Notes under the pieces: model-generated
Databases searched by the model: none
Seen by the model: the letters and a program-made list of their open reading frames with translations, nothing else
Told to the model about the DNA's origin: nothing
Shown: positions 26,236-43,509 of the stretch, piece after piece
How positions within the stretch are numbered: position 1 is the first letter of the stretch
Layout of the letters: every line of letters begins with the position of its first letter
Translations under genes and position numbers: made by a program
NCBI GenBank assembly: GCA_026126165.1
Contig: JAHCJR010000001.1
Coordinates: 1 to 64,000, forward strand
Reading direction: 5' to 3'
Origin: Alphaproteobacteria bacterium
Lineage (GTDB): Bacteria; Pseudomonadota; Alphaproteobacteria; Ferrovibrionales; Ferrovibrionaceae
Length of the DNA: 64,000 nucleotides

Positions 26236-26355
26236 GCAGCCTGTATCTGCCCGGACCAGCCACATGGTGGAATAGTGGCCGGATTGAATGCGAAAGGAGC
26301 ATCCAGACTAGTCCGGCCCGCGCTGCCGACCAACAGCAAAGGGGAATTGCCGTTG

Positions 26356-27366
26356 ATGACACACCGGTGCGCCAGGGACGCGGCCTGCCTCCCCGGATTG
26401 CGGCGGATTCTGTTGGCCGTGGCGATGCTCTGCTGCCTCGCCCCGCAAGTGCTGGCGGCCGGGCGAACGCTGGAGGTGGGCCCGACGCGCCCGCTCCGCC
26501 TGCCAAGCGAGGCGGCGAGGCTCGCCGGCGACGGCGACCGCGTGCTGATCGACCCTGGCATCTACCGGGACTGCGCCTATTGGCCGCAGAACGATCTTGT
26601 CTTGCGAGCCCGCGACGGCGAGGTGCATCTGACGGAAAAGGTCTGTGGCGGCAAGGCAATCTGGGTGATCGCAGGCCGCGACGTCGTGGTCGAGGGGATC
26701 CGCTTTTCCCAGGCCCGCGTGCCCGACCGCAACGGGGCGGGCATTCGGCTCGAGCCCGAGGCGAGCCTTACCGTGCGCCATTCGCACTTCCTGGGCAACG
26801 AGATCGGGCTTCTGGCCGGCAACGGCGCCCGCTCCTATGTCGTGATCGAGCATAGCCGGTTCGAGGAGACCACGCTTTCGCATGCGCTCTACGTGAATTT
26901 CATCGACCGGCTGGAGATCCGGAACTCCGTGTTCCTCCGCCAGTTCGGCAAGCATCACGTCAAGTCACGGGCTCGGCTGAACCTGCTGGTCGACAACACC
27001 ATCGACGACGGAACGGACGGGGTGTCCAGCTATCTCGTGGATTTCCCGAACGGCGGTACGATCACCCTGCAAGGCAACCGGCTGACGAAGGGTCCGCGTT
27101 CGGCAAATGCCACAGCGGCGATCGCCATCGGTCTCGAGGGCGAAAAGCTCCAGAGCGAAGGAATCATGCTGCGCGACAATGAATTCACATCGCGCCGCCC
27201 GGGGCTGCGGGCCTTCGTGCGCAACGCGACCGGCGTGGAAGCGCAGATCTCCGGCAACCGGATCAGGGGCTTCGTCACCGTGCTCTCGGGTCCGGGAACG
27301 GTCACGCCGGGACCCCGGCGCACGTCGAACGGGACAGACGGGAGAAAGAATGTCGTTGGCCAATAA
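26356..27366 (+). CDS. Secreted right-handed parallel beta-helix protein
   Basis: 336 residues from ATG 26356; a GTG at 26275 is in frame but would bury the signal peptide. A basic start (RR) and a hydrophobic stretch ILLAVAMLCCLAPQVLAA give a Sec signal with cleavage after LAA. The mature part shows short beta-helix rungs: repeated patterns such as GIRLEPEASLTVRHSHFLGN, YVVIEHSRFEE and RLEIRNSVF, with N/S ladders typical of pectate-lyase-like or alginate-epimerase-like folds. These often bind, cut or epimerise uronic-acid polymers, fitting the uronate genes nearby. No catalytic set could be assigned. It overlaps the next gene by 17 bp. Confidence 0.78.
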   Translation: MTHRCARDAACLPGLRRILLAVAMLCCLAPQVLAAGRTLEVGPTRPLRLPSEAARLAGDGDRVLIDPGIYRDCAYWPQNDLVLRARDGEVHLTEKVCGGKAIWVIAGRDVVVEGIRFSQARVPDRNGAGIRLEPEASLTVRHSHFLGNEIGLLAGNGARSYVVIEHSRFEETTLSHALYVNFIDRLEIRNSVFLRQFGKHHVKSRARLNLLVDNTIDDGTDGVSSYLVDFPNGGTITLQGNRLTKGPRSANATAAIAIGLEGEKLQSEGIMLRDNEFTSRRPGLRAFVRNATGVEAQISGNRIRGFVTVLSGPGTVTPGPRRTSNGTDGRKNVVGQ

Positions 27367-30300
27367 CGCGAAAGACGGCGTGTTTGCCGGTCCCAACCGC
27401 CGCGAGGTGCTGCAAGGAACCTTGGCCGGCGCGGCCGCGATCGGCCTGCCGGGCCTGATGGGAGCGGCGGCCGCCCAGAGCGGCGATGACCTGGGCCGGG
27501 TGCGATTGTTCAATCCCGGCCGCCAGACTCTGCGACCGGCACCGGTGACATTCGGGTTCGCCGCGCCACGCGGCGCGGTGCCGCGCGGGCAGAATCTCGC
27601 CCTTGTCATTGGCGCTGGCCGTCACCCGGTTCAGATCGACTTCTTCAATGCCTGGAACGATGGCACGCTCCGGTTCGGCGTCATCTCCGCCATCGTTCCG
27701 GAACTGCCGCCCGGACGTGAAATCGAGGCAAGGATCGCACGCCTGCCAGGGCCACCGCCGGAAGGCGCACCCATATCCGCCTCCGACATTGCCCGGTATC
27801 TGGAAGAGACTGGTGGGGCGCCGAACCTGGAATGGCTGGATCGCGACGGCGGCGCCTATCGGGCAGACGCAACCACGGCGCTCCGCGGGCCGACTGGCTG
27901 GAATCCCGACGGTCCGTCGGTCTCCGGCCGCTGGCTGGCGGGACCGGTCTGTACAGAATGGGTCTGCAGCATTCCGCTCGCGAACGAACGCCGGCAGGCT
28001 CATCCCTCGCTCCGTGCCTATTTCCACTGCCGGGCCTGGCAAGGCGGCGGCAGGATCCTTGGCGTAAGAATTGATGTCGTCCTCGACAACACGGTCGGGC
28101 CTTTCGACACGCGTGTCCGGGAGGCGGTGGGCGATCTGCAAATAAGGCGGGGGAACAGCCCCGACTGGAGCCGGACGGGTGCAGACCTGTCGGGCGCCGG
28201 GCTTGAAGCGGCTGCGGCGGGAAGTTCGGGCAACGACCTGCTCCTGCGCGCCAGGTCAGCAGCGTTTCGGCCCGATCACCGGTTCATGACCCTGGACTGG
28301 GATGGCGTGGCGTTACATGTCCTCGAGATCCGAAGCGAACGAGAGGTACTGGCGCGGCCGCTTGTCGACGAGAAGTGCGTCGTCAGCGGACTGAACGTCC
28401 GGGCAGCCGGGCCTCTTTCGCTCAACGGGTCTGCCGTCTATCGCGGCATCGCCTATCTGCATCAGTCGCGGCGGCTCAGGGTCGCAGCGACAGCCAAGCA
28501 GGCCATGAGCGGGCGCAGGTTTCACCTGAAGGGACGCGATGGTGCGGGCCGACCCGTCGAGGAAATTCTGGTGAGCGGCGCCGATGGCAGTGCCAGCGGC
28601 CAACAGCGCTTCGCCGAAGTCCATGAAGCGACGTGCGACGGAGCAACAGGTGGCACCATCGAGATCGGAACGGCGCGCCCGGCCCATGGGCGTGCCGGCG
28701 CGGCGCGGCTCTGGGGTGTCTCGATCGCTGCCTGGACACGGTGGCCGATCAGGCTCGAATACGGCCTCGCCGGCGCCGAACCGATGCTCGACCCTGGCGT
28801 CCTGGTTACTTCCGGATTGCTGCCGCGCTACGGAATGGACATGGTATCGAAAGGCCATGCGGCCTGGGTCGAACGGATGGTGCGATCGATTGCCGGTCAG
28901 ACGGATTCCTCGGGCCGGATCATTCCCGGCAGCCGCGATCCCGACTACTCCCACGGGCGATGCCTCAATGTCATCATGGGCGGCGCGCAGCCAGGTGGCC
29001 GCCCCGACCTTGCCGTCGTGCCCGGACAACAGGCCGCCTGGGTGTTCGCGCCGACGAACCGGGCGATGTACCGCGCCATGCTTGCCTGCGGCCATGCCAT
29101 GCATCAATGGCCCTGTCACTGGCGGGAAAGGGAGACCGGCCTTGGCGTCGATCCCGGCCGCAGGCGCAGCTTCACCACGCATTTCAATGCGTCGGAGAAC
29201 GACAAGCCGCCGCACTGGCGACGCAGCACCAACACCATCGCCAGGATTGCCACCGACCCGGAACACTGGATCGAGTTCAGCTACCTCCCCTTCCTCGCCA
29301 CCGGCGATCTACATCACTACGAGTCCCTTTACGACGTCACCTTCGCGGCCTGGGCCTGGCATCCGGCGAAATGGCCCTACCAGACGCAGCATGACGGCTA
29401 TGAGCGCGCCACAGTGACCACCAATGCGCGGGCCGTCGCCTGGGTCATGCGCAATCTCGGGCATTTCCGCGTCTGCGCGCCCGAGCACCTGCCGGACCGC
29501 GCTGTTGCATCGCCGCCCGAGACCATCTACCGGATCTACGCGACGCAACAGGCCTGGCTCAAGCGCTGGCATGTCGATGGACCCGATCTGAACGGCCTCA
29601 TGCCGGCGGATAAGGGGGATCACAAGTTCCTTCAGCATGGCAAGGGGCCGGTCTTCGCCTACGCCCAATGGATGCACTCCTATCTGTCCGCAGCCATGGC
29701 ACATCTGGCGCAATCGGAAAGCCTCGATGCTGACGGATTGGCGTTCTTCGACTGGTACAAGAGCTATTCGGTCGATCAGGCCGACCCACGACAGACGCAT
29801 CCGGGGGTCGCTGCCGGATTCTATTACTGGCGTGCCCGTCGGCCAGACGGGAAGCCGCTGCGCAGCATGGCGGAGTTGTACCGTTACATGGCCGATGAAG
29901 AGTGGCCGACGCCGGCTTCCCCGCTTTTCACGCAGATCGAGCCCAATGCCGAACTCGTGCTTGAAGGGCAGCGGACAAATGCCGGCTCCCGACTTGTCGC
30001 GCAAGCCCTGTCCGGACGCGCCGGGGCGCCGAGCCGTGTCTTCGCGGCCGAATTACAGGGACGACAGATCCATACCGCCGGCGATAATGGCCTTGGCCGG
30101 ATCGTGCAGGTAATGGATATCGAAGCTGGCTTAGGCAGCCGTCTCGAGATCGTGGTGGAGCGACCCTTCCGGAGCGAGCGCTACAACCCCAAGCAGTGGC
30201 GATTGCAGATGCCTCCGCCCTCGGCCGGCAGCGGGCTCGTGCTCGATCCAAGTCGAAGCGTCGGCGACTATCCCTATCTACTCATGGGCGCTCTTGGGAC

Positions 30301-30433
30301 GCTGGCGGCAGTCGAGGTCGCTGGTGCGCGCGAAGCCTGGAGGCGTTTACGGGCGCTGGCACGGGCATCCGGCAAGGATTTCCCCGATGCGCGCGCCGAT
30401 CTTTGTGGCTGGGCAATCTCCGCTGGAACCTGA
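27350..30433 (+). CDS. Tat-exported large putative glycan-active protein (related to the RTX protein core)
   Basis: 1027 residues from ATG 27350, with GGAG seven bases upstream. The N-terminus has a twin-arginine signal NRREVLQGTLAG, a hydrophobic core and a cleavage site near AAAAQ (about residue 44). The mature part starts with a beta-rich domain (VTFG at 66, DGTLRF near 104) and continues into an alpha-helical domain with aromatic, histidine-rich stretches (HAMHQWPCHWRE, SYLPFLATG at 644). This order resembles exo-acting polysaccharide lyases of the rhamnogalacturonan exolyase type: RIFT-like barrel plus alpha/alpha barrel. That is inference; no active site is proven. The same order and many identical motifs recur in the RTX protein at 46555-51951. 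Tat export suggests folding, perhaps with a cofactor, before transport. Confidence 0.7.
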   Translation: MSLANNAKDGVFAGPNRREVLQGTLAGAAAIGLPGLMGAAAAQSGDDLGRVRLFNPGRQTLRPAPVTFGFAAPRGAVPRGQNLALVIGAGRHPVQIDFFNAWNDGTLRFGVISAIVPELPPGREIEARIARLPGPPPEGAPISASDIARYLEETGGAPNLEWLDRDGGAYRADATTALRGPTGWNPDGPSVSGRWLAGPVCTEWVCSIPLANERRQAHPSLRAYFHCRAWQGGGRILGVRIDVVLDNTVGPFDTRVREAVGDLQIRRGNSPDWSRTGADLSGAGLEAAAAGSSGNDLLLRARSAAFRPDHRFMTLDWDGVALHVLEIRSEREVLARPLVDEKCVVSGLNVRAAGPLSLNGSAVYRGIAYLHQSRRLRVAATAKQAMSGRRFHLKGRDGAGRPVEEILVSGADGSASGQQRFAEVHEATCDGATGGTIEIGTARPAHGRAGAARLWGVSIAAWTRWPIRLEYGLAGAEPMLDPGVLVTSGLLPRYGMDMVSKGHAAWVERMVRSIAGQTDSSGRIIPGSRDPDYSHGRCLNVIMGGAQPGGRPDLAVVPGQQAAWVFAPTNRAMYRAMLACGHAMHQWPCHWRERETGLGVDPGRRRSFTTHFNASENDKPPHWRRSTNTIARIATDPEHWIEFSYLPFLATGDLHHYESLYDVTFAAWAWHPAKWPYQTQHDGYERATVTTNARAVAWVMRNLGHFRVCAPEHLPDRAVASPPETIYRIYATQQAWLKRWHVDGPDLNGLMPADKGDHKFLQHGKGPVFAYAQWMHSYLSAAMAHLAQSESLDADGLAFFDWYKSYSVDQADPRQTHPGVAAGFYYWRARRPDGKPLRSMAELYRYMADEEWPTPASPLFTQIEPNAELVLEGQRTNAGSRLVAQALSGRAGAPSRVFAAELQGRQIHTAGDNGLGRIVQVMDIEAGLGSRLEIVVERPFRSERYNPKQWRLQMPPPSAGSGLVLDPSRSVGDYPYLLMGALGTLAAVEVAGAREAWRRLRALARASGKDFPDARADLCGWAISAGT

Positions 30434-30466
30434 CGCCATTCATCATCGTATGCCGGGCCAACTCGC

Positions 30467-31678
30467 ATGATCTCCCTTGGGTATGCCGAATGGGGCTGGC
30501 CGGAGCTGCGGGCGGCCTTCCTTGCTTCGATGCGGCCAGCGGACGCGTCCTCGTCCACCAGGCTGCTAAGCGATGCGTTCCAATCTCTCGGTTATGGACC
30601 CTGCCTGTTGCCGCTGAACCTCGGCCGTTCGGCGCTCAGGCTTGTTCTCGATGCACAGCGTCGGCTCGCGCCACAACGCCGGCTGGTGCTACTGCCCGAC
30701 TATGTCTGTCCCAGCGTCGTATCGACCGTCAGGCTGGCCGGTCTCGAACCCGTCCCCGTACCTGTCGCGGCCGATGATCTGAATATGCTGCCGGAAGCCG
30801 TTTCGTCCATGATTAGCCACGAGACGCTGGCGGTGATTGCCGTCAGCATGTATGGCGTTCCCGTGCCACTGGAGGAGATCGCGGCTTCCTGCCGTCGAAG
30901 CGGAGCCATTCTGGTGGACGATGCCGCCCATGCCGTCGGCATCCGGCGTGGCGATCTACTGCTTGGCTGCGGCGGCGATGCCGGGCTTCTCAGTTTCAAT
31001 CAGTCGAAGACGATCACGGGCGGCAGTATCGAAGGCGGCGGCCTGCTGATCATCAACAATCCGGCATTGCAGAAAGAGATTTTCGACAACCTCCACCGGA
31101 TGGCGCGCGCGACCGGCCGTCCGGTTGAGGTGCTTTCGTTCGTCCTCAACCACCTGTGCGACCGTTTCGCCTATCCACCCGAGGTCTACACCGGACAACT
31201 GCGCCGGAGGTTTGGCCTGCCCGTACCAGCGCGACCCGAAATCGGCCCGGCGCTGATCTCCAATGCTGCGGCCTCCGCGGTCCTTGCCCAATTGCCCCGG
31301 TTGCCCGCAATCCTCGACGGCCGGATCAGGATCGCCGGGTGGTATGGAGAGCTTCTGCCCCGAATCGAAGGCCTGGAATTCCCGCAGGGCCGACCGGGAC
31401 GCTATCTTTCGCGCATACTGGTTCGTCTGCCACCGGGAACAGAGGCGAAGGCCCTGCAGGATGCCTTACGCACACACGGCGTGCGGACACGGCTTGGCTA
31501 TCCGGACTGGGCCCGGCAAAGGAAACCGGAAGCCCCGGAACTGATCGAGCTGCCCATGCGGTTAGCGATGTCGAAACCAGATGTCGCGAAAGTATGCGGC
31601 GCGCTGGCGAAGGAATTGGCGCGGGTGGCCCAAGGATGGCGTACGGAGCGGCGGCCACGCGTGGGGAGCGGTGAATGA
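30467..31678 (+). CDS. DegT/DnrJ/EryC1-like PLP-dependent aminotransferase
   Basis: 403 residues. Fold-type I PLP enzyme of the sugar-aminotransferase family: VDDAAHAVG (about 147-155) carries the cofactor-pyridine aspartate, and LLSFNQSKTITGGSIEGGG contains the expected Schiff-base lysine. This branch is divergent; N- and C-terminal parts do not match the common WecE/PglE types closely. Family members usually move an amino group onto a nucleotide keto-sugar. It begins a run of four closely spaced plus-strand genes. Its stop overlaps the ATP-grasp start by 4 bp (ATGA), so the two are coupled. Confidence 0.8.
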   Translation: MISLGYAEWGWPELRAAFLASMRPADASSSTRLLSDAFQSLGYGPCLLPLNLGRSALRLVLDAQRRLAPQRRLVLLPDYVCPSVVSTVRLAGLEPVPVPVAADDLNMLPEAVSSMISHETLAVIAVSMYGVPVPLEEIAASCRRSGAILVDDAAHAVGIRRGDLLLGCGGDAGLLSFNQSKTITGGSIEGGGLLIINNPALQKEIFDNLHRMARATGRPVEVLSFVLNHLCDRFAYPPEVYTGQLRRRFGLPVPARPEIGPALISNAAASAVLAQLPRLPAILDGRIRIAGWYGELLPRIEGLEFPQGRPGRYLSRILVRLPPGTEAKALQDALRTHGVRTRLGYPDWARQRKPEAPELIELPMRLAMSKPDVAKVCGALAKELARVAQGWRTERRPRVGSGE

Positions 31679-32865
31679 CGAATGGTGGCTACGCGATACC
31701 GGCCGTCGTGGTGGGTGGCGGGCTCAATGGCCTTGGCGTCGTGCGAAGCCTCGGCCAGGCGGGCATACCTGTCACGGTGCTCGACAAGGATCCCGGAGCG
31801 CCGGCCATGCGGTCGCGTTTCGCGCGTGCCATCCGCGCTGGCAGCCATGGACCCGAGAAAGTGGAAGGTCGGGATCTCATCGATACCCTCATGGATCTGC
31901 GGAGCGGCTGGGATACACGACCTGTCCTGTTCCTGACCCAGGAAGAATCCGTCGCTTTCGTTTCAGCGCGGCGCGAGCGTCTGGGGAACGGCTACCGCTT
32001 TACAATGCCCACGCACGATACGATGGCGACGCTGCTCGACAAGACGCGCTTTCAGGCACGCGCCGAAGCCCTCGGATTCCCGCTGCCCCGATCCTGCTCG
32101 CTTTCTGGGCTGCAGCATCTGCTGTCAGCCCGGGGCCTGCGCTATCCCTGCATCGTCAAACCTGTCACCAAGAACCCGCTCTGGGGCGCGAAATTCAAAA
32201 AGGCCTACGAAGTGGCGACATTCGCGGAACTGGAAACGCTCTATCGCACGATGGTCGAGTTTTCTTCAGATGTCATCGTGCAGGAATGGATCAAGGGACA
32301 GGATTGCGATGTCTATTTCTGCCTGCAGTATCGGGATCGGAACGGCCAGACGCGTGCGAGCTTCACAGGGAGGAAGATACGTCAGTGGCCACCGATGGTA
32401 GGCGGTACGGCAAGCTGCATGCCGGCGCCGGAGGCTGCCGCGGTGCTCGAAGAACTCACGTCGCGCTTTTTCGATGCGGTCGGTTTCGTCGGTATTGGCA
32501 GCATGGAGTACAAGCGGGACCAGAGGGACGGCCAGTTCTACATGGTCGAGCCCACGGTGGGCCGAACCGACTATCAGGAAGAAGTCGCCACCCTGAATGG
32601 CGATAACATAGTTCTAGCGGCCTACGAGGCGGAGTGCGACCTCCCTTCGAGGCCGCGGGCGCCAACCGGGAGAGCCCCGGGGCGGATTTGGCGCGATCCT
32701 TTCGGCGATGCACGATCCGCTGAATTGCAGCCGGATCATATTGCTCCGGCAGAGGCCAGGAATTGTGAGGTTGTCGATGCCTACTGGCGCTGGAACGATC
32801 CCGGCCCCTGGATCGGCATTAAATTCGATGCGATCCGCAATCGGTTGCGCCGCCTGACAGAATGA
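31675..32865 (+). CDS. ATP-grasp ligase
   Basis: 396 residues. The N-terminus is a Rossmann-like pre-ATP-grasp domain (VVVGGGLNGLGVVRSLG at about 11-27, then VLDKDPGAP). LLDKTRFQARAEALGFPLP marks the entry to the ATP-grasp fold, with the phosphate-gripping segment PCIVKPVTKN around residue 162, IVQEWIKGQD near 203, and a metal-site stretch MVEPTVGRTDYQEE near 290. Such enzymes join a carboxylate to an amine or thiol via an acyl phosphate. Related stand-alone ATP-grasps appear in polysaccharide loci. The substrate is unknown; a uronic-acid carboxyl plus an amino acid or amino sugar is one option. Confidence 0.8.
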   Translation: MTNGGYAIPAVVVGGGLNGLGVVRSLGQAGIPVTVLDKDPGAPAMRSRFARAIRAGSHGPEKVEGRDLIDTLMDLRSGWDTRPVLFLTQEESVAFVSARRERLGNGYRFTMPTHDTMATLLDKTRFQARAEALGFPLPRSCSLSGLQHLLSARGLRYPCIVKPVTKNPLWGAKFKKAYEVATFAELETLYRTMVEFSSDVIVQEWIKGQDCDVYFCLQYRDRNGQTRASFTGRKIRQWPPMVGGTASCMPAPEAAAVLEELTSRFFDAVGFVGIGSMEYKRDQRDGQFYMVEPTVGRTDYQEEVATLNGDNIVLAAYEAECDLPSRPRAPTGRAPGRIWRDPFGDARSAELQPDHIAPAEARNCEVVDAYWRWNDPGPWIGIKFDAIRNRLRRLTE

Positions 32866-32973
32866 TGAACCGAAGCCTGGTCGGGTTGACCGGCAGCGAC
32901 TGGCAATGTTTTGTTAGGCAGGAATCGTCACCATGTTCGACAATCCTCGATGGGATATCGAAAGAATATCAGT

Positions 32974-34185
32974 ATGAACGCGTTTCAGCATGCCGCTACA
33001 CTCGCGCGCCGCTGGCGAGAGGAATTTCGCCTTCCACAGGCTGCGAGGCGTGAGCGGACGCGGGATCGGCAGGGCCTGCCGCAGAACGATCCGGGTGCCG
33101 CGAGCGCAATCGCTGCAGGGCTCGACTGGCTTTGTCAGGCGCAGGACAGATCGGCGACCAAGGACGGCGGCGCCGCGCGCCATTTCAGCCTCCTGACAGG
33201 CTGGGCAAGTTCCTATCCAGAGACTAGCGGATATATCGTCCCGACACTTCTGCGCGAAGCGAGACTTTCCAGCGATCCAAAGCTCGAAGCGCGCGCGCGA
33301 CGCATGCTCGACTGGCTGGTATCCATCCAGTTTCCCGAAGGCGGCTTCCAAGGTGGCGTTGTCGACGCCCTGCCCCGCGTGCCTGTCACTTTCAATACCG
33401 GGCAGATCCTGCTTGGACTCGCCGCTGGTGCCGCCGAACTGGACCGTGACCGCTATCTCGAATCCATGCGCAAGGCGGCCCAATGGCTGGTGGACTCCCA
33501 GGATAGCGATGGTTGCTGGCGCCGCCACCCGACGCCCTTTGCCAAGCCCGGCGAGAAGGCCTACGAAACCCATGTCGCCTGGGGACTTTTCGAGGCGGAT
33601 CGGGTACTTCCCGGACTTGGATTCGGCGAGGCCGGCCTTCGCCAGGTACGCTGGGCGATAGCCTGCCAGCATCCAAACGGCTGGTTCGAGAAATGCTGTC
33701 TGAGCGATGCGGAGCGGCCGCTGACACATACGCTGGGATACGTCTTGCGCGGCATCATCGAGGCGTATCGTCTCGTGCCCGCCGATGACCTGCTCGCGGC
33801 TGCGATACGCACCGCCGATGGCCTGCTCGGCGTACTCGAACCCGACGGGCGCCTGCCGGGCCGGCTCGACAAGGAGTGGCGTGCGGCTGCGCCCTGGGTC
33901 TGCCTGACAGGCAGCGTGCAGATCGCCCATTGCTGGTTCCTCCTCTCCGATATCACCGGCAATGCGCGATATCGCGAAGGCGCGCGCCTGGCCAATCGCT
34001 ATGTGCGGCGAACCCTGGTGATCGATGGCCCGCCCGAAATACGCGGCGGTGTCAAGGGGTCGTTTCCAGTCGATGGCGGATATGGACGTTTCGAGTATCT
34101 CAACTGGGCCTGCAAGTTCATGATCGATGCCAATCGGATGGAGCTTGACAATCTGGCGAAGGGCGCGACCGACCGCGTAATCTGA
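32974..34185 (+). CDS. Alpha/alpha-toroid (prenyltransferase/cyclase-like or six-hairpin) protein
   Basis: 403 residues from ATG 32974; ATG 32950 and TTG 32911 are in frame but without better ribosome sites. No signal peptide. Helical hairpin repeats with QxxxGG-type turns: YIVPTLLREARL, RARRMLDWLVSIQFPEGGFQGG, TFNTGQILLGLAAG, AAQWLVDSQDSDGCW, and YETHVAWGLFEAD. These are the marks of an (alpha/alpha)6 barrel as in terpene cyclases, glycosidases and C5-epimerases/lyases. No DxDD cyclase motif was seen, so terpene chemistry is unlikely; a sugar-chain role fits the surroundings better. The preceding 108 bp hold nothing else I can name. Confidence 0.65.
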   Translation: MNAFQHAATLARRWREEFRLPQAARRERTRDRQGLPQNDPGAASAIAAGLDWLCQAQDRSATKDGGAARHFSLLTGWASSYPETSGYIVPTLLREARLSSDPKLEARARRMLDWLVSIQFPEGGFQGGVVDALPRVPVTFNTGQILLGLAAGAAELDRDRYLESMRKAAQWLVDSQDSDGCWRRHPTPFAKPGEKAYETHVAWGLFEADRVLPGLGFGEAGLRQVRWAIACQHPNGWFEKCCLSDAERPLTHTLGYVLRGIIEAYRLVPADDLLAAAIRTADGLLGVLEPDGRLPGRLDKEWRAAAPWVCLTGSVQIAHCWFLLSDITGNARYREGARLANRYVRRTLVIDGPPEIRGGVKGSFPVDGGYGRFEYLNWACKFMIDANRMELDNLAKGATDRVI

Positions 34186-34210
34186 TGCAGAATTCCGGCA
34201 CGGAAGTCCG

Positions 34211-35950
34211 ATGAGCGGTCTGCTGGTCCAGTGGAAAGGCGACCGGAGCGAAGGCGTGCGTCAAGCGCCGGATGCCGCGCGGCAGACGTTCCGGGAATCT
34301 GGACAATTGCTGGTAAAAACGATCGAGAAGCCCGACTACCGGATCGACTGTTTCAGCCGCATCGACAATGCGACCGACAGTGTCGTCAGCTTCCCCGATG
34401 GCGGATTCGCGGCCTGCGCGGGCACACTTTTTCACCAGCGTGCGACGGGGGAGGAGGCACTCAGGCGGATATACGCCGAGTTTGACGGGAATCCGGGAAT
34501 CCTCGCCGGGACCAGCGGGCATTTCCTGCTGGCAATCGGAAAGGACGGGCGGCTCTTCCTGATGCGCGATCGCAACGGCGCCTTCGAGACTTATGCGACG
34601 AAGGACAGGCGCATTCTTTCTACATCTTTTCTGGCCCTTGCCGCCGCCCTCCCCCGACATTCGCTCGCCTTCCAGGAGGCTTATGAGTACGTCTTCAATG
34701 GGGTCACCCTTGGCGATGGCACGGTGATTGAGGAGATCGAAAAACTTGGCATTGATGAGTGGCTGACCTTTGGCACCAATGTGCAGCGGCATCGGCACGA
34801 TTGGCCGCTACTGCCCGAACCATCCAGCCGGATGCGCGATCAGCTTCTTGCCGCGTTGCACGAAAAGCTGCGTCGCCTGGTTGACCAGACCGCCGGCGCC
34901 TACGATGGCAAGGTGCGGCTTGCACTATCTGGTGGCTACGACAGCCGGCTTCTTGTTGCACTGCTGCGGGAAGCAGGATACGCGCCGGAACTCTATGTCT
35001 ATGGAGATGCCGCCAGCCCGGATGTGCGCATTGCCATGCACATCGCGAAAAGTGAGCAAGTGGCGCTTGCACATCTCGACAAATCCGATGCGCCGGAACC
35101 CACCATCGGGCAGTTCCCCGCGCTGGTCCGGCGCAACTATCTCGTCGGGGACGGACTGCCCTGGGGCGGGCTCTTCAACAGGGGAGCGGAACATTCCGCC
35201 CGCAAGCGGCGGCATGCCGGCGGCGCGCTTCTCCTCAATGGCGGCGGTGGCGAGGTCCTGCGCAATTTTTTCAACTTGCCCGACCGCGATGTCCGGCCCA
35301 TTGACCTGGCCTATGCCTTCTATTCCCAGTTCGATGCGGCGACATGCAGCGTCGGCTTTGACCGAGGGGCGCATCTGGCACATATCGCGGAGAAGATCCG
35401 GCGGCTGCCGGGACTGGATCGCCCTCGACTGACCAGGCAGATGGCGGAAGCGGTCTATCCGCATTTCCGTTGCCGGTCGTGGAACGGACGGGAGAGCCTG
35501 ATCAACAGCCGCTTCGGACCCTGGCTTCTGCCATTTTACGACTACGAGATCACCCAGGCAGCCCTCTCCATCCCGGTGCGGTTCAAGTACCATGGCGATT
35601 TCGAGGCGGCCCTGATCCGGCGTGCCGATCCGCGTCTGGCGGCCTATCCGAGCAACTATGGAACCGGTTTCGATCAAGATGCGCCACTCAAGCGGCGCCT
35701 TGGCGACTGGGCATACTATCTCCAGCCGACCTGGCTCAGGCAGTATCGCTATGCGATCAAGCATCGCCTGCGGTCCGAACGGAACTTCGCCAGGTGGCTC
35801 GACGGGGAGCATGCCGGCCAGGTTATCGACCTGGAGCTGCCCTACATGTCGCGCCTGTTCCGGCCCGAGCGCATCTTCGACGAGGCGCAGTATTCCCGCG
35901 TCCTGACCCTGGAGTATCTGCTGCAAACCCTGAATGCGAGGATGGATTAG
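34211..35950 (+). CDS. Asparagine-synthase-like protein without the glutaminase cysteine
   Basis: 579 residues. The C-terminal part is an ATP-pyrophosphatase (PP-loop) domain with LALSGGYDSRLL, the AMP-forming loop at S240-S245, as in asparagine synthetase B and beta-lactam synthetase. The N-terminal part (~1-215) has the length and strand pattern of a class II glutamine amidotransferase domain, but starts MSGLLV instead of MCGI, so the N-terminal nucleophile cysteine is missing and glutamine cannot be split there. Loss of this cysteine is also seen in beta-lactam and lasso-peptide (McjC-like) synthetases, which use an internal amine. It may therefore make an intramolecular amide or use ammonia or an amine from elsewhere. 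It ends 2 bp before the next glycosyltransferase. Confidence 0.85.
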   Translation: MSGLLVQWKGDRSEGVRQAPDAARQTFRESGQLLVKTIEKPDYRIDCFSRIDNATDSVVSFPDGGFAACAGTLFHQRATGEEALRRIYAEFDGNPGILAGTSGHFLLAIGKDGRLFLMRDRNGAFETYATKDRRILSTSFLALAAALPRHSLAFQEAYEYVFNGVTLGDGTVIEEIEKLGIDEWLTFGTNVQRHRHDWPLLPEPSSRMRDQLLAALHEKLRRLVDQTAGAYDGKVRLALSGGYDSRLLVALLREAGYAPELYVYGDAASPDVRIAMHIAKSEQVALAHLDKSDAPEPTIGQFPALVRRNYLVGDGLPWGGLFNRGAEHSARKRRHAGGALLLNGGGGEVLRNFFNLPDRDVRPIDLAYAFYSQFDAATCSVGFDRGAHLAHIAEKIRRLPGLDRPRLTRQMAEAVYPHFRCRSWNGRESLINSRFGPWLLPFYDYEITQAALSIPVRFKYHGDFEAALIRRADPRLAAYPSNYGTGFDQDAPLKRRLGDWAYYLQPTWLRQYRYAIKHRLRSERNFARWLDGEHAGQVIDLELPYMSRLFRPERIFDEAQYSRVLTLEYLLQTLNARMD

Positions 35951-35952
35951 CG

Positions 35953-37098
35953 ATGGCGCGCGGGCAGGCCGGCACGCCGGCGCTGACGTTGTTTCACGTC
36001 TTCCCCTCCTTCGGCATCGGCGGGGCACAGATACGTTTCGCGCAACTCGCCAATCATTTCGGCGCGCGCCATCGCCACCTGGTGCTTGCCATCGACGGCG
36101 ACTACGGCACGGCTGCGCTGCTGCGGGAGGAAGTCTCGCTGACCAGGCTGGAAGCAGGTTTCCCGAAAGAAAGAGCGCTCTGGCATCTGCCGGCCATGCG
36201 CCGCCTGATGACGGCGAGCAGGGCGGATATTCTGGTGACCTACAATTGGGGTTCGATCGAATGGGCGCTGGCGAACCGCTGGCTGTCCGCCATTCCACGG
36301 CATGTGCATTTCGAGGACGGATTTGGCCCGGAAGAGGCAAACCGGCAGGTGCCGCGCCGGGTCTGGTTCCGCCGGCTGGCGCTGGGCGGCGGGCATACGC
36401 GCGTCATCGTGCCCTCGCGTGTGCTCGAAGGGCTGGCGCTGCGGCACTGGCGGCTCGCGCGGGAACAGGTGATCTACCTGCCCAACGGCATCGACCTGAC
36501 GCGGTTTTCGGCGGCCGGCGAACGGCGTTCGGCGGAGAGCGTGATCGGCACCATCGCCCGCTTGCGCCCGGAAAAGAACCTGAGGCGCCTGATCGATGCC
36601 TTCGCGACCCTCGCCGAGCTGCCCGAACTGCGCCTGCTTCTGGTGGGCGACGGAGCGGAGCGCGAGGCGCTCACGCGCCAGGCGAGGGCACTTGGTCTCG
36701 GCGATCGGGTGCGTTTCCATGGCGCGACCGACCGGCCGGAGGCGCTGCTGCGGGAGATGGATATCTTCGCGCTCTCCTCGGACACCGAACAGATGCCGAT
36801 CAGCCTGATCGAGGCGATGGCAAGCGGCCTGCCGGTCGCCTCGACCGATGTGGGCGACGTGGTCAATATGCTGCCCGAAGAGAACGCGGCGCTGGTGCGA
36901 GGCTGCAAGGACACCGCAAGTCTCGCCGTCCAGCTCCGCCGCCTCGCCGAGGATCGGGACCTGCGCAGGAGGCTCGGCGCCGCGAACCGGGAGCGGGCGG
37001 AACGCAGCTTCGATGAAAGGGAGATGCTCGGCCGCTACGAGACCCTGTTTGCACCACCCGATGGCACCGGCGCCGCTTCGCCGGACAGCCGCTCATAA
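35953..37098 (+). CDS. GT4-family glycosyltransferase
   Basis: 381 residues from ATG 35953, just after the preceding stop. GT-B fold: SFGIGGAQIRFAQLANHF is the acceptor-side glycine loop, NGIDLTRF the linker, GTIARLRPEKNLRRLIDAF the start of the C-terminal domain, and the E(x7)E motif lies in EQMPISLIEAMASGLPV. It probably adds a sugar to the lipid-linked repeat unit. It closes the plus-strand run that starts at the beta-helix gene, and its final 64 bp overlap the 3' end of the convergent fusion gene in a different frame on the other strand. Confidence 0.9.
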   Translation: MARGQAGTPALTLFHVFPSFGIGGAQIRFAQLANHFGARHRHLVLAIDGDYGTAALLREEVSLTRLEAGFPKERALWHLPAMRRLMTASRADILVTYNWGSIEWALANRWLSAIPRHVHFEDGFGPEEANRQVPRRVWFRRLALGGGHTRVIVPSRVLEGLALRHWRLAREQVIYLPNGIDLTRFSAAGERRSAESVIGTIARLRPEKNLRRLIDAFATLAELPELRLLLVGDGAEREALTRQARALGLGDRVRFHGATDRPEALLREMDIFALSSDTEQMPISLIEAMASGLPVASTDVGDVVNMLPEENAALVRGCKDTASLAVQLRRLAEDRDLRRRLGAANRERAERSFDEREMLGRYETLFAPPDGTGAASPDSRS

Positions 37099-39440
37099 AG
37101 CGCGATCGGCGTCATTGCCACGCCGCCAATGGTCTCGAGGAAGTAGCGGAAATAACGCTCCGTCGTGGTGATGAACTCCTTCAGGTCGCGCTCGGTCCGC
37201 ACATAGGGCGTATTGCCCGGCGAGAGGGAGGGCGAGTGGAACGAGAAAGTGATCACCCGCTGCCCGCCCGCCAGCAGCGATTCGGTGAGGCGGCGCAGCT
37301 CGTCGAAGGTGATGCCTTCCGGCGTGAGGGTGATGCGTTCCATCGCATGCAGTCGCGCGAAGGGGCCGAGGATGGCATAACGGGTGAGCGCCGAGCGGTC
37401 GAGCCGGGGAAAGATGCGCGGCCCCGCCCAGGCGAGCGAGCCGGCGAAGCCCCGCGAGACAGGCAGGGAGAGCAGGCGGCGATGCTGGCCGAACCAGAAG
37501 GGCGTGGCGCCGAAGCCGCTATAATCCGGCCCGCCCTCGGCGGAAAGGTCGGTATGCGGCATGATGCTGGTATCGACCAGGTAGCCCAGGTCTTCGAGGA
37601 TCTCGGCACTGTTCGGCCCTAGCCCGTAGCGGCCCGCCTTGTAGACCTTCGGCCGGACGCCGATCCGCGCCTGGATTTCCTCGGTGAGCGCGGCGAGCTT
37701 GGCCCGTTCCAGCGCACGCGGCAGGTTGCCGGCGAAGGAATTGGCCTTGGAGACCGTCTCCTGGTGCGGCGGATTGACCCAGGGATGGAGCTGCGCGCCC
37801 ACGAGGCAGCGGCCCTCCCGCGACCAGGCGCCGAGCAGGGCCTGACCCATGTCCGAGGTCACCACCGGATAATCCACGAGATAGGTCGGCACGATGTTCC
37901 AGCGCTGGAAGACATCCTGGGCGAGCGACAGGTTTCCCAGCGAGGAGACGGAGAAATTCTCGCGCGAGAAGGGCTGACGCCAGTCGAAATCCTCTTCCGT
38001 GTCGACGATGGCGACCAGCGCGGGCCGCTCCAGCGCCGCCGCATCGATCGGCGCGTGGAAGCGGCTGCGGGTCATGCCGGTCTGGTCGCGGCGCGGCTGC
38101 GGATCGCGCCGGAGCGAGGGGCGCAGCTCGTTCAGGAAGCGCTCCAGGCTGGCGAACTGTTCGGCCCGCGAGAGGCCCTGGGGGCTGCGTTCGGGAAGCG
38201 GCGCGATGCCGCCCGAGGCCTTCTCCGCGATCCAGGTCCGGAGCTGCCTGGCGATGCCTTCTGCCTCGTTGCAGACGATGCCGGCCCCATGCTCGCGCAT
38301 GATCTGCGCCACCGACCCGCCGTCGTAGCCGATGCCGAGGACGGGCCGCCGCGCGGCTATGTATTCGAACAGCTTGCCCGAAATGGTGCCTTCCTCGCGC
38401 GGATCGTTCCATTGCAGATGCAGCAGCACGTCGGCGTTCATCTGCAGCCGCAGCGCCTCCCGGTAGGGAATGGGCGGGCTCACCTGGACCAGGTCTTCCA
38501 CGCCGCAGCGCCGGGCGAGCGCGCGCACCACCTCGTTGCTGGTGCCGACGAACTCCACGCGGACGCGCCCGCGCTCCTCACCCAGGAGGCCGATGGCCTG
38601 GAAGAGCGGCGTCGGATCGCGGTAGCCTTCGTAGATATGGCCGGTATAGACGATGCGCACCGGACCTTCGGCCGATGGCCGGGCCGGCGGCATCTCGGGG
38701 AAGTCCTCGAGCACGAAACCGTTCATGATGAGCGCGGTCGGCTTGCCGAACTTGCGCCGGAGCACGCCCTGCCAGGGCGGCGAGACGGTGACCATGGCGG
38801 CGGCGCGGTCGAGCACGCGCCCTTCCCAGATCCGTTCGAGCACCTTGCGCGCGGCCGAGTAGCTGTAATAGGGATGGTCGATCCAGAGATCGCGGAACTC
38901 GGCGATCCAGGGGATGCTGAAGCGCCGCGCGAGCCGGTCCGCCACCAGCAGGCTGGTGAAGGGCGGCGCCGAGGCATAGATGATATCCGGCCGCCAGTCG
39001 GCGAGCAGGGTGCTGCCGGCCCGCACCGCGTGCGGCAGCCAGCCGATGCGGTTGTCGGGCCAGCGCACCAGCTCGCAATAGAGCCGGCGCAGCGCCACGC
39101 GCAGCCGGCTTTCCGCGCCACCCCCGCCGGTCGCCCCCGACGAGGCGCCGCCCAGTGCATCGGCGGCGGCCGGGGTCGCGGCGGCCCGGGCGCGGCGGCG
39201 GTACCAGTCCGGGATCAGGCTGTCGATCGCATGATCGACCTCGAACCAGGGCGTGTAGACGACCCGCTCCTCCGGTATTTCCACGGGCAGGTTCTTCGCC
39301 TCGCCCGAATCGGCGGCGAGCACGCGCACGTCCCAGCCGCGCTCCATGAGGAAGCGCGAAAGCTTGCCGATGCGCAGCGCCCCGATCCCGGCATAGGGCG
39401 GATAGAGGTAGGACACGAGGAGGATGCGCGGCTTCTGCAT
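37035..39440 (-). CDS. Fusion of a GT4-type glycosyltransferase with a polysaccharide deacetylase-like domain
   Basis: 801 residues. Residues 1-~440 are a GT-B glycosyltransferase: SYLYPPYAGIGALRIGKLSRFL at the start, EFRDLWIDHPYY, VYTGHIYEGYRDP opening the donor half, and EEGTISGKLFEYIAARRPVLG in place of the usual E(x7)E. After a linker (about 440-470), the rest is a NodB-like carbohydrate esterase domain: VDTEEDFDW (catalytic/metal aspartates), QLHPWVNPP (a metal histidine), YKAGRYGLG and ITFSFHSPSL. The two activities are usually separate genes in exosortase loci. The fused enzyme might add an N-acetyl sugar and deacetylate it. Metal-site completeness cannot be fully checked by eye. Confidence 0.82.
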   Translation of the reverse strand: MQKPRILLVSYLYPPYAGIGALRIGKLSRFLMERGWDVRVLAADSGEAKNLPVEIPEERVVYTPWFEVDHAIDSLIPDWYRRRARAAATPAAADALGGASSGATGGGGAESRLRVALRRLYCELVRWPDNRIGWLPHAVRAGSTLLADWRPDIIYASAPPFTSLLVADRLARRFSIPWIAEFRDLWIDHPYYSYSAARKVLERIWEGRVLDRAAAMVTVSPPWQGVLRRKFGKPTALIMNGFVLEDFPEMPPARPSAEGPVRIVYTGHIYEGYRDPTPLFQAIGLLGEERGRVRVEFVGTSNEVVRALARRCGVEDLVQVSPPIPYREALRLQMNADVLLHLQWNDPREEGTISGKLFEYIAARRPVLGIGYDGGSVAQIMREHGAGIVCNEAEGIARQLRTWIAEKASGGIAPLPERSPQGLSRAEQFASLERFLNELRPSLRRDPQPRRDQTGMTRSRFHAPIDAAALERPALVAIVDTEEDFDWRQPFSRENFSVSSLGNLSLAQDVFQRWNIVPTYLVDYPVVTSDMGQALLGAWSREGRCLVGAQLHPWVNPPHQETVSKANSFAGNLPRALERAKLAALTEEIQARIGVRPKVYKAGRYGLGPNSAEILEDLGYLVDTSIMPHTDLSAEGGPDYSGFGATPFWFGQHRRLLSLPVSRGFAGSLAWAGPRIFPRLDRSALTRYAILGPFARLHAMERITLTPEGITFDELRRLTESLLAGGQRVITFSFHSPSLSPGNTPYVRTERDLKEFITTTERYFRYFLETIGGVAMTPIALYERLSGEAAPVPSGGANRVS

Positions 39441-39627
39441 TCTGGCACAGTATCTCCCGGCACGGTGCGGCTGGACAAGCGCCGCGCCCGGCCCACAGAC
39501 TGCGCCGGCCCGGTTAAGGATATCTCAAGCGCGGGCGCGGTTGTATGTCGCGGCGCGATATGGAGAATGCGCCCGGCCTCGCCCGCCTGGCGCGCGCGGC
39601 GGCAAGGGTCTCGGGCCAGGAGCGGGA

Positions 39628-41061
39628 ATGGACGTAGCCGACAGGATCAGGCGGGGCGTGAAGTGGCTGGCGCTCGGCAAGGCGGCGACGCAGGTCATCC
39701 TGTGGGGCTGCACCATCGTCACCATGCGCCTGCTGGCGCCGGCGGATTACGGCCTGGTGGCGCTGGCGGCGGTGTTCATGTCCTTCGTCGCGCTGTTCCA
39801 GGAACTGGGCCTCAGGGTGCGCCTCGTCCAGCTCGAGAAGCTGGAGCACGATTACGTGCGGGCGGTCTATGGCCTCAGCATCCTGGTCAATCTCACGCTC
39901 GCGCTCTGCCTCGTTGCCGCGGCGCCGCTGATCGCCGCCTTCTTCGGCGAGGAGCGGCTGGCGCTCATCGTCACCCTGCTCGCCGTGCAGTTCCTCTTCT
40001 CCTCCATCGCCGTGATCCCGGATGCGATGATCCGCCGCAGCCTCGATTTCCGCGCGCTCACGCTGGTCGAGATGCTGCAATCGACGAGCGGCGCGCTGCT
40101 CACCCTGGCGCTCGCCTGGATGGGCTACGGCGTCTGGTCGCTGGTCTGCGGCACCCTGCTCGCCGCCCTCGTGAAATCGCTCGGACTGATCTGGATCTCG
40201 CCCTTCCGGGCGCTGCCGCGCCTGACATTCAAGGGCATGCGCAGCACCCTGGTCTTCGGCGGCTATGTCACCGGGCAGCGGATCTCCTGGTGGTTCTATA
40301 CGGGGTTCAGCACCATGATCCTCGGCCGCCTGTTCGATGCGGCAACGGTCGGCATCTACACGGTGGCGCATACCATCGCCTTCATGCCGCTTGAGAAGCT
40401 CGGCTCTATCATGGCGACGGCGAGCTTTGCCGGCCTCTCCCGCGTCGCGGGCGACATGCCCGTCTTCCAGGCCTATCTCCTGAAGGGCGTGCGGCTGCTC
40501 TCGGTCGCCGGGTTTCCGGTCTTCTTCGGCATTGCCGCCATCGTGGCGGAGCTGACGCCACTGGTGCTGGGCGAGAAGTGGCTCCCCATCGTGCCGGTCG
40601 CCCAGCTTCTCTGCCTGGTTATGCCGCTGCGCATGCTGAACGGGCCGCTGACCGAGAGCCTGAACGCAATTGGCAAGCCGGCGGCGGCCTGGAACAACGT
40701 GCTGATCGTCGCGGTCTTCGTCATTGCCGGCGTCGCGGCCGGCGTCGCCTGGGGCCCCGTCGGCGTGGCGTGGGGCTGGGTCGCGTCCTTTCCCGTCGCC
40801 TTCCTGATCAGCACGGCGCGGGTGGCGCGCCATTGCGGCCTCGCCTATAGAGAGTTTCTCCGGCCCATGCTGCCGGCGGCAGGTCTGGCCGGCGCGATGC
40901 TGACCGGACTGCATTTCGGGCGGCCCTATCTCCCGCTGCCCTTTCCATCCTGGGAAGGGCTCGCGGCCACCGTGCTGCTTGGCATCCTGTTCTATGGCCC
41001 GGCCACCCTGCTCCTCGACCGGGAAGGCAGCCGGCAGGTGCGGGCACTGCTCAAACGATGA
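39628..41061 (+). CDS. Polysaccharide flippase (MOP superfamily, Wzx/WzxC-like)
   Basis: 477 residues from ATG 39628, preceded by GGAGCGGGA. About 12-14 membrane segments spread over the full length. It begins with an amphipathic VADRIRRGVKWLALGKAATQV and the charged first helix typical of Wzx proteins; the motif LAPADYGLVALAAVFMSFV and the later segment FGGYVTGQRISWWFYTGFSTMILGR are found in WzxC/LPS-exporter-like flippases. It moves lipid-linked glycan units to the periplasm. It is divergent from the GT/deacetylase fusion across a 187-bp gap that must hold both promoters. Confidence 0.88.
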   Translation: MDVADRIRRGVKWLALGKAATQVILWGCTIVTMRLLAPADYGLVALAAVFMSFVALFQELGLRVRLVQLEKLEHDYVRAVYGLSILVNLTLALCLVAAAPLIAAFFGEERLALIVTLLAVQFLFSSIAVIPDAMIRRSLDFRALTLVEMLQSTSGALLTLALAWMGYGVWSLVCGTLLAALVKSLGLIWISPFRALPRLTFKGMRSTLVFGGYVTGQRISWWFYTGFSTMILGRLFDAATVGIYTVAHTIAFMPLEKLGSIMATASFAGLSRVAGDMPVFQAYLLKGVRLLSVAGFPVFFGIAAIVAELTPLVLGEKWLPIVPVAQLLCLVMPLRMLNGPLTESLNAIGKPAAAWNNVLIVAVFVIAGVAAGVAWGPVGVAWGWVASFPVAFLISTARVARHCGLAYREFLRPMLPAAGLAGAMLTGLHFGRPYLPLPFPSWEGLAATVLLGILFYGPATLLLDREGSRQVRALLKR

Positions 41062-41083: not shown

Positions 41084-41263
41084 TCACCGTTCCGGCAGTT
41101 TGAACCGCCGGTCGGTCTCGTTCTCGCGCGGCGCCTGATTGTCCCGCATGGCGAACAGGCCCTTGGTCTCGCCGGTATCGCCCGCGCCATCGTTGATGAT
41201 GGTCCAGTGCACGATCAGGGCGATGACGACGAGGGCCGCGGCAAACAGAAGTCCTGTTACCAT
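41084..41263 (-). CDS. Small membrane protein (59 aa) coupled to the O-glycosylation ligase gene
   Basis: ATG 41261-41263 overlaps the stop of the ligase gene as TAATG, with GGGAG seven bases upstream; TGA at 41084-41086. Residues 3-22 form one membrane helix (GLLFAAALVVIALIVHWTII), followed by a hydrophilic, charged tail (MRDNQAPRENETDRRFKLPER). The termination-reinitiation layout strongly supports translation. I do not recognise the family. Expression in fixed ratio with the ligase suggests an accessory subunit or regulator of it. The 3' end is 22 bp from the convergent flippase stop. Confidence 0.75.
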   Translation of the reverse strand: MVTGLLFAAALVVIALIVHWTIINDGAGDTGETKGLFAMRDNQAPRENETDRRFKLPER

Positions 41264-42606
41264 TACCGTCTCCCGAGTTCGGAAACATTGCCGGGGACAG
41301 CCGGTTTAGGGCCGGTGCCCGGAAGTTCGAAACGCGCCGGCTGGCTGGCCATGGCGAGGGTGACGCCCGAGATCTGACGTTCCACTGCCTTGCGGGTCGC
41401 GGCCATGAGGGCGACCATGACATAGACCACGTCGTAGTAAGCCATGCTGAGGGCCGCGCCGGCCACGGCGAAGGCGACCAGACTGACCTGCACCATTCCG
41501 GCAAGATCGTAAGCCCAGACCAGATCGGCCCGTCGCCGCGTCAAGGTCTGGATGCGCCGGGCATTGGTGATACCCGCCGCGAGAATGCCAAGGAACAGCA
41601 GCAAGCCGACGATTCCATGTTCGCCGAGCACCTGGAGATAGACGCTATGCGCCGCCCTCGGCTTCTCTGCGTTTGGTACGTACCGGTAGTAGACCTCGGC
41701 TGTCTGCTGCGCTTGGAACCCTGCGCCGACCAGCGGCCGGTCCATGGCAATCTGGACCGCGACTCCCCAAGCTTCAATCCTTGCCCGGAACGATTCGTCG
41801 GACATTGGATCGCGGATCGTCTGCATCCGGGTTTCCCATTCGGCCGGCATGAAATTCACGCCGACCGCCACGACGAGTGTTGCGACGAAAACGGTAACAA
41901 TCTTGTACCGGCCCTTGACGAAGAGCGCGAAGAACACAACCGCAAGTCCGACCAATCCACCTCGCGAATAGCTTCCAATCACCGCCACCGAATTGAGGGT
42001 AAAAACCGCAATCAGCCCAAGGCGGAGAAATAAATAGCGGGAGTTCAAACGCAGATAATTGATTAATGGCAGGGTCAGGACCAGTGCCAATGCCAGGTGG
42101 TTGTTGTCTGCTATTTCTGTCTGCGGTGGCCCCCACACCCTGTCAGTACCGCCGGTCAGCAGGACGAACCCGCCACCCTTGATCCCGTAATAGGCAAGGC
42201 ACGACACGATCAACAGGATGAAGGCATGAATTCGCGTTCGCCGATCAATGAGGAAGAGAACGAGTATGGCGAAGATCAGCGTCTTTATGTGGCGATCAAA
42301 GTAGGTCCAGGCGGCACTGCCATTCAGGGCAAACAAGGTTGTCAGAAGGAACCATAGTCCGAAAGCGAGCATCAGCCATAGCGTGCGATCCGAATAGAGC
42401 CGGACCCTTTCCTTGTAAAGGATCAGGCCGAGCAACGTGATCCCCGCGACGATCATATTGAGCGGAAGAAGCGTCCCAAACCCGAAGACCTGCCGGTGCG
42501 GGCTCATGAACGAGATCCAGCCCCAGACCAATAGGCCAACATAGGGCAGGAACAGCCCGATGGGTGCGAGGCAAAAATATGTCAGCATCAGGACGAGATC
42601 ACGCAT
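41263..42606 (-). CDS. Putative O-glycosylation ligase, exosortase A-associated (O-antigen ligase fold)
   Basis: 447 residues, about 10-12 membrane segments and one larger periplasmic loop near residues 260-320, as in Wzy/WaaL proteins. The N-terminal LMLTYFCLAPIGLFLPYVG and WGWISFMSPHRQVFGFG are characteristic of the exosortase A-associated ligase family. GGTDRVWGPPQTEIADNNHLALAL, and later HSVYLQVLGEHGIVGL with a likely catalytic histidine in the family's large loop, fit. It would transfer the lipid-linked glycan to protein or another acceptor at the periplasmic face. Upstream of the start (42607-42751) lie 145 bp without a gene, turning A+T-rich. Confidence 0.9.
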   Translation of the reverse strand: MRDLVLMLTYFCLAPIGLFLPYVGLLVWGWISFMSPHRQVFGFGTLLPLNMIVAGITLLGLILYKERVRLYSDRTLWLMLAFGLWFLLTTLFALNGSAAWTYFDRHIKTLIFAILVLFLIDRRTRIHAFILLIVSCLAYYGIKGGGFVLLTGGTDRVWGPPQTEIADNNHLALALVLTLPLINYLRLNSRYLFLRLGLIAVFTLNSVAVIGSYSRGGLVGLAVVFFALFVKGRYKIVTVFVATLVVAVGVNFMPAEWETRMQTIRDPMSDESFRARIEAWGVAVQIAMDRPLVGAGFQAQQTAEVYYRYVPNAEKPRAAHSVYLQVLGEHGIVGLLLFLGILAAGITNARRIQTLTRRRADLVWAYDLAGMVQVSLVAFAVAGAALSMAYYDVVYVMVALMAATRKAVERQISGVTLAMASQPARFELPGTGPKPAVPGNVSELGRR

Positions 42607-43471: not shown

Positions 43472-43509
43472 ACATTTGCTCCACGACTACACAATTCAAA
43501 TAGAATGCA

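Follow-up and report, generated by a model that had tools for sequence, protein, structure and literature searches.

Gene run and family assignments

The sequence analyzed here (the window) comprises the first 64,000 nucleotides of contig JAHCJR010000001.1 from an alphaproteobacterium of the Ferrovibrionaceae (assembly GCA_026126165.1), and the subject of the analysis is a cassette of adjoining genes inside its exopolysaccharide (EPS) locus. Seven co-directional genes on the plus strand (26275-37098) form one run there, with intergenic gaps of about -20 to +45 bases. In order, they encode a right-handed beta-helix protein (26275-27366); a Tat-signal, lyase-like secreted protein (27350-30433, start at about 27350) with a weak PcRGLX match below the cut-off; a DegT/DnrJ/EryC1/StrS aminotransferase (30467-31678); a divergent ATP-grasp ligase (31675-32865); an (alpha/alpha)6 toroid protein (32911-34185 with its listed start); a cysteine-less asparagine-synthetase-like (AsnB-like) protein of an XrtA-locus family (34211-35950); and a GT4 glycosyltransferase (35953-37098) that is stp2-like below the cut-off. 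An ATGA overlap of 4 bases at 31675 joins the DegT gene to the ATP-grasp gene. A sequence-only reading had described the four genes from DegT to AsnB-like as a cassette. These four plus-strand open reading frames (ORFs) and their ATGA coupling were verified, and the proposed families (PLP aminotransferase, ATP-grasp, six-hairpin and AsnB-like) agree with the family matches and the toroid model, but the run extends to seven genes and the listed toroid start is doubtful. A genus-mate (G016/L047) also has the whole block, 94-99% identical; taken alone, this indicates only recent inheritance, and it is the distant copies described below that exceed chance.

The DegT protein is a genuine member of PF01041 (E 7.5e-33, over the cut-off), and its D151 and Schiff-base K181 (31007-31009) are invariant across five aligned family members. 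A Schiff-base lysine for pyridoxal phosphate (PLP) marks the aminotransferases of this family, with histidine in the dehydratase branch. Its NCBIfam scores fall far short of the cut-off of every named equivalog, the best being 64.7 bits where 420 are required. The ATP-grasp protein is identified by weak D-Ala-D-Ala ligase and CPSase-like matches, all below the Pfam cut-offs, and among proteins of solved structure D-Ala-D-Ala ligase B comes nearest to it in sequence (E 5e-6). It carries the ATP-binding lysine and acidic Mg-binding residues that define membership: K162 (32158-32160), E204, E278 and E292 are invariant across seven aligned homologues, as is R297, and threonine replaces the usual asparagine after the last glutamate.

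The AlphaFold model of the toroid (mean pLDDT 90, from 45 sequences) shows six helical hairpins in an (alpha/alpha)6 fold. Its low-confidence residues 1-19 make ATG 32950 or ATG 32974 probably the better start than the listed TTG 32911. Invariant residues of the toroid include E104, H221 and H273. In a structure search, the nearest match is unsaturated glucuronyl hydrolase (E 1.4e-10), followed by cellobiose 2-epimerase; TM-scores to these sugar-active barrels reach at most 0.65 by query length and 0.74 by target length, at 11-14% identity. Single-sequence phmmer searches of the toroid and the AsnB-like protein against the PDB gave no match, and matches came with profiles. In the family databases, the toroid matches SQHop_cyclase_C and Prenyltrans, with PF13243 barely over its cut-off (26.8 versus 26.1 bits) across only 54 residues and TIGR01787 at 25.6 versus 322.7. 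A squalene-hopene or terpene cyclase was rejected because these matches are weak and partial and the structure is closer to sugar enzymes; in databases, toroid relatives bear the misleading name of prenyltransferase/squalene oxidase repeat protein.

A genome-wide profile scan found at least 540 toroid relatives in many phyla. The best 80 of these at least 540 come from Pseudomonadota, Zixibacteria, Planctomycetota, Acidobacteriota, Gemmatimonadota, Nitrospirota and Chloroflexota, with many metagenome-assembled genomes (MAGs), and cultured carriers include Duganella, Massilia, Janthinobacterium and Skermanella. Haloarchaeal toroids (35-37% identity) lie in glycan islands with WecB, sugar dehydrogenase and sulfatase genes. 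Plasmid searches returned distant ATP-grasps and haloarchaeal toroids. The toroid, left unexplained by the sequence-only reading, is the hub of the set: no other gene of the cassette is as well conserved or as widely distributed. In three genomes that belong to a single family (L031, L032, L033), a second toroid subfamily (about 41-43% identical) is found away from EPS loci, adjoining genes for phosphatidylserine synthase and decarboxylase.

The AsnB-like protein is identified by TIGR03104, TIGR01536 and weak PF00733 matches. As the sequence-only reading had noted, it has no glutaminase nucleophile: the N-terminal cysteine is missing in seven of seven members, the window protein and six close homologues. 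The SGGxDS motif of the ATP pyrophosphatase site is kept as SGGYDSR (34928-34948), with SGG in six of the seven members and SSG in L118. The glutamate of the SGEG motif is replaced by glycine or serine in a five-member alignment (NGGG, NGSA, SGGC, NGSL), and the lysine of the RPK motif has no counterpart when the protein is aligned to cysteine-bearing relatives from the same loci. We take the missing residues to be the equivalents of Glu348 and Lys449 in E. coli AsnB numbering. With cysteine, glutamate and lysine all absent, a working role as an acyl-adenylate amide synthetase is doubtful, and so is the earlier suggestion that the cassette holds two carboxylate-activating amide enzymes. A cysteine-less amide synthetase of the beta-lactam synthetase (BLS) or CarA type was considered and doubted on the same grounds. 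The AlphaFold model is moderate (pLDDT 71, 12 sequences; global TM-scores of 0.3), so it was used for family identity only. The protein would thus be an accessory of XrtA loci with an altered synthetase site.

A homologue of the beta-helix protein at 26275-27366 lies near or next to the AsnB-like gene in four loci (L029, L034, L036 and L152), forming a second conserved pair. Near toroids in L059, L060, L064, L069, L070, L072, L073, L076 and L091 there are other cysteine-less AsnB-like proteins, distant relatives of the one in the window, whose motif reads SGGxDSR or SSGxDSR. Stop codons within AsnB-like homologues of four draft genomes (G179, G239, G432 and G514) reflect pseudogenes or assembly errors.

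Recurrence of the DegT, ATP-grasp and toroid genes

The DegT, ATP-grasp and toroid families recur together in EPS loci from three further sources, namely a different alphaproteobacterium (L058), a MAG from the Pseudomonadota (L076) and an Accumulibacter (L094), with identities to the window of 34-38% for DegT, 49-55% for ATP-grasp and 58-62% for the toroid. The order DegT-ATP-grasp-toroid is shared by the window, L047 and L058; it is toroid-Wzx-DegT-ATP-grasp in L076 and toroid-Wzx-ATP-grasp-DegT in L094. All four families lie within 8.4 kb in L058, where the genes are a glycosyltransferase, DegT, ATP-grasp, toroid, a second glycosyltransferase, Wzx and the AsnB-like gene (37%), followed by EPS export genes. 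A homologue of the GT4 gene at 35953 flanks the block in L048 and L058. This distant recurrence goes against the outcome on which the sequence-only reading would have been abandoned, that the genes are never conserved together in other genomes.

Gene neighbours were surveyed at 77 toroid loci (51 clusters at 75% identity). Gene calls came from a simple script instead of a trained gene finder, and adjacency was defined as the same strand within 150 bp of the toroid. A window-type ATP-grasp is present in 7 of the 77 loci, and a DegT match above 100 bits accompanies it in five of these seven, versus none of the 70 others; the corresponding p value of 1e-6 ignores relatedness and is indicative only, being loose because the loci are related.

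Among 18 genomes of the order, the toroid and the AsnB-like gene were found only in the window's genome and its genus-mate. Among 385 genomes of the class, at the thresholds used, the toroid occurs in 9, the AsnB-like gene in 10 and the ATP-grasp in 3; the AsnB-like gene and the toroid co-occur in 3 (p about 0.001 with the window's own genome and 0.013 without it). The four genes as an exclusive block were therefore rejected, their distributions being separate in the class and phylum samples. DegT, ATP-grasp and toroid constitute a true module, and the AsnB-like gene is a looser partner, a recurrent neighbour whose family goes with XrtA loci in general. The cassette is real, conserved and unnamed; its chemistry is not categorically new.

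Exchange of the acyl-transfer partner

In 56 of the 77 surveyed loci, the immediate same-strand neighbour of the toroid is of an acyl-transfer type: AAC(3)-like in 39, FemAB/GNAT-like in 10 and ATP-grasp, of three subfamilies, in 7. Toroid-adjacent positions are held by 39 of 42 AAC(3) genes, 10 of 12 FemAB-like genes and 7 of 12 ATP-grasp genes, against a base rate of 10.5% (99 of 942 genes). The AAC(3) counts overstate independence because many rows are close Janthinobacterium relatives, and the enrichment of FemAB tests less strictly than those of the other types because FemAB was defined after the neighbours had been inspected. Pfam confirmed the partner families (PF02522 and PF13480/PF02388).

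An AAC(3) gene and the stop codon of the toroid gene usually overlap. In no locus do AAC(3) and ATP-grasp both adjoin the toroid, and the two types likewise do not share any toroid cluster at 75% identity (17 clusters with AAC(3), 6 with ATP-grasp). On the toroid tree, parsimony assigns 5 label changes to ATP-grasp, 6 to FemAB and 12 to AAC(3), and supported branches require at least two, three and four, respectively, with bootstrap values not fully settled. This pattern suggests that the partners were swapped repeatedly.

One ATP-grasp directly upstream of a toroid is fused to a low-molecular-weight tyrosine phosphatase (L028:8623-10602, the same as L061). At L074, L079, L084 and similar Janthinobacterium loci, the polysaccharide gene types of the window are absent within 10 kb of the toroid-AAC(3) pair, which may thus act on a product made elsewhere.

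The surrounding exopolysaccharide locus

The locus is an XrtA/PEP-CTERM exopolysaccharide locus, with matches to TIGR03097, TIGR03108, TIGR03019, PrsT, stp1 and stp3 over their cut-offs. The TIGR03108 member is the XrtA amidotransferase at 56846-58774 (minus strand), the standard AsnB-type enzyme of the locus, in which the N-terminal MCGI and the RPK motif are present; the AsnB-like protein at 34211-35950 is not among the TIGR03108 matches. Next to this gene lies the FemAB-family XrtA protein (TIGR03019; 58787-59833, minus strand). The putative O-glycosylation ligase of the exosortase A system (TIGR03097) is encoded at 41263-42606 on the minus strand and the Wzx flippase at 39424-41061 on the plus strand. 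Upstream of the run are a nucleotide-sugar dehydrogenase for uronic acid supply (TIGR03026, over the cut-off; 20219-21661, plus strand) and a WecB-type UDP-GlcNAc 2-epimerase for amino-sugar supply (over the cut-off; 23902-25002, minus strand).

Downstream, a GT4 fused to a polysaccharide deacetylase (37035-39440, minus strand) is one ORF in the window and the genus-mate and is split into separate genes in L027 and L029; its glycosyltransferase part also adjoins the block in L058. On the minus strand, at 46555-51951 and 52248-55384, a very long ORF lies beside a type I secretion HlyD/PrtD pair. This ORF probably encodes a large secreted repeat protein, and a long plus-strand ORF competes with it. 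The GC content falls to 0.53 at 42001-44000, compared with about 0.60-0.70 in the rest of the window.

Proposed function and alternatives

The leading reading, which we hold tentatively, is that the cassette is a tailoring set that builds a single amino-sugar residue in N-acylated (amide-bearing) form, inside the cytoplasm and ahead of export by Wzx. The DegT enzyme would transaminate a keto-sugar nucleotide, or a sugar on a lipid carrier, to an amino sugar, and the ATP-grasp would activate a small carboxylic acid or amino acid as an acyl phosphate and join it to the amine. The toroid would act on the same sugar, either by epimerase- or hydrolase-like processing (for example, freeing the amine) or by keeping it in place while it is acylated. 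Where the toroid of another lineage has an acyltransferase of the AAC(3) or FemAB type beside it, that enzyme would replace the ATP-grasp step. This proposal draws on the observed gene set, the DegT and ATP-grasp catalytic residues, the predicted toroid fold, recurrence, adjacency and partner exchange, from which we infer the substrates, the order of steps and the toroid role. The finding of three unrelated amide-forming or acyl-transfer types in the same slot suggests one task, acylation of the sugar on which the toroid works, and the presence of WecB and sugar dehydrogenase genes, here and with haloarchaeal toroids, was counted in its favor. Pairing an amine-making with an amide-making enzyme, as the sequence-only reading had done, is the natural interpretation. 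It is also conceivable, with less assurance, that the toroid founds a widespread, unrecognised class of cytoplasmic sugar-modifying proteins that form one unit with an exchangeable acyl-transfer enzyme. Such a unit would be a general two-protein N-acyl or amino-acyl device for surface-polysaccharide sugars, with DegT as the amine source in its ATP-grasp version.

Several observations weigh against N-acylation of an amino sugar. No keto-sugar-forming partner for DegT was identified in the window, which offers only a GalE/TviC/RmlB-like short-chain dehydrogenase/reductase at 21696. Matches to Gfo/Idh/MocA (WbpB-type; PF01408) were absent from contig C1 and found only elsewhere in the genome, in an assembly that is 81% complete. 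The ATP-grasp is present without a nearby DegT in L048 (a short contig), L050 and L147, and 21 of the 77 toroids have none of the three partner types adjacent; some of these 21 have an Acyl_transf_3 or sulfotransferase gene as neighbour, and the usual targets of such enzymes are hydroxyls. Acylation of amines by the AAC(3)-family enzymes of these loci is putative, and the toroid fold match (TM-score about 0.65, 11-14% identity) gives no reaction.

The sequence-only reading had favored amidation of a carboxylated glycan, yielding a uronamide or an amino-acid amide of a uronic acid, with the ATP-grasp and the AsnB-like protein both activating carboxylates. The sugar dehydrogenase would supply the uronic acid, the AsnB-like protein retains its SGGxDS ATP site, and an AsnB-family enzyme makes the uronamide in the Wbp/Vim pathway (PMC7468200). 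However, the locus already has a cysteine-bearing amidotransferase of the standard type, the AsnB-like family has lost the catalytic glutamate and lysine along with the cysteine, and the replacement of ATP-grasp in the partner slot by acyltransferases of the acyl-CoA and FemAB types is easier to reconcile with acylation of a sugar amine than with amidation of a glycan carboxylate. We therefore keep glycan amidation as an unlikely alternative. Similarly low probability is given to the view that these EPS tailoring genes work independently of one another and, although found in the same type of locus, make no common product, their proximity reflecting gene shuffling in polysaccharide islands. The AsnB-like gene is where that view is strongest, since its family mostly has no toroid or ATP-grasp nearby (e.g. 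L034, L036 and L150-L152) and its overlap with the toroid among the class genomes is small, but it is at odds with the tight toroid/acyl-transfer and DegT/ATP-grasp adjacency across distant taxa.

Alternatively, the cassette could yield a small amide compound that lies outside the repeat unit and that XrtA links to PEP-CTERM proteins or to the polysaccharide. Non-sugar ketones are possible substrates of DegT enzymes, and the Janthinobacterium toroid-AAC(3) pairs are often away from recognised polysaccharide genes. The compound attached by exosortases is unidentified, and amino-acid-modified sugars have been suggested for exosortase loci (PMC7468200). We regard this option as improbable, as glycan enzymes are the nearest fold matches of the toroid and glycosyltransferase, Wzx and XrtA genes surround many toroid copies outside Janthinobacterium.

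Relation to known systems

The AsnB-like protein shares its fold and ATP motif with beta-lactam synthetase, carbapenam synthetase CarA, TsnB9 and AsnB; BLS and CarA are also without the glutaminase cysteine. It differs from all of them in having no Glu348/Lys449 equivalents and in reading SGGxDSR instead of SGGxDSS. The toroid has the (alpha/alpha)6 barrel of unsaturated glucuronyl hydrolase (GH88), cellobiose 2-epimerase (AGE family) and GH76, a comparison by fold, not catalytic residues, and unlike these it carries no visible secretion signal.

The nearest known concept is the Wbp/Vim amino-acyl-uronamide pathway of P. gingivalis and T. forsythia (WbpA/B/E/D, WbpS, VimE and VimA), whose product is 2-N-seryl, 3-N-acetylglucuronamide and whose authors link VimA and WbpS/TIGR03108 relatives to exosortase loci (PMC7468200). 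This close functional parallel qualifies the earlier statement that no related system was known. There, as here, a DegT aminotransferase, an AsnB-family protein, an amino-acyl transferring enzyme and a deacetylase come together, in that case to make an amide- and amino-acyl-bearing uronic acid. In contrast, the cassette adds an ATP-grasp and a toroid, its AsnB-like protein is without the catalytic residues, and separate TIGR03108 and FemAB genes lie elsewhere in the locus. A full Wbp pathway at the locus was rejected, as no WbpB-type gene was found there. Contig C2 carries a second DegT gene with a 4,6-dehydratase-like gene next to it, in all likelihood a distinct pair of the PseB/PseC type.

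The backbone of PEP-CTERM regulators, FemAB, deacetylase, 2-epimerase, glycosyltransferases and Wzx resembles psc1 of Rubrivivax gelatinosus and the Zoogloea floc loci. The 75-kb psc1 EPS locus has three asparagine-synthase genes, and a transposon screen for mutants that aggregate less or not at all hit two of them (PMC3684757); work cited in PMC7662799 reportedly found asparagine synthases to be needed for floc formation. No published description of the DegT/ATP-grasp/toroid set, and nothing relevant on ATP-grasp enzymes with exopolysaccharide, O-antigen or capsule, was found in the literature searched, a scope outside which most subscription journals fall.

XrtA/PEP-CTERM polysaccharides bind activated-sludge flocs and many biofilms, and their amide and acyl decorations are largely uncharted. 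The set described here recurs in bacterial outer-polysaccharide loci, and its most likely task is to add an amide group to one sugar. The steady coupling of the toroid to three unrelated acyl-transfer families provides a testable handle on its job, and the toroid with its exchangeable acyl-transfer partners is a notable unstudied system.

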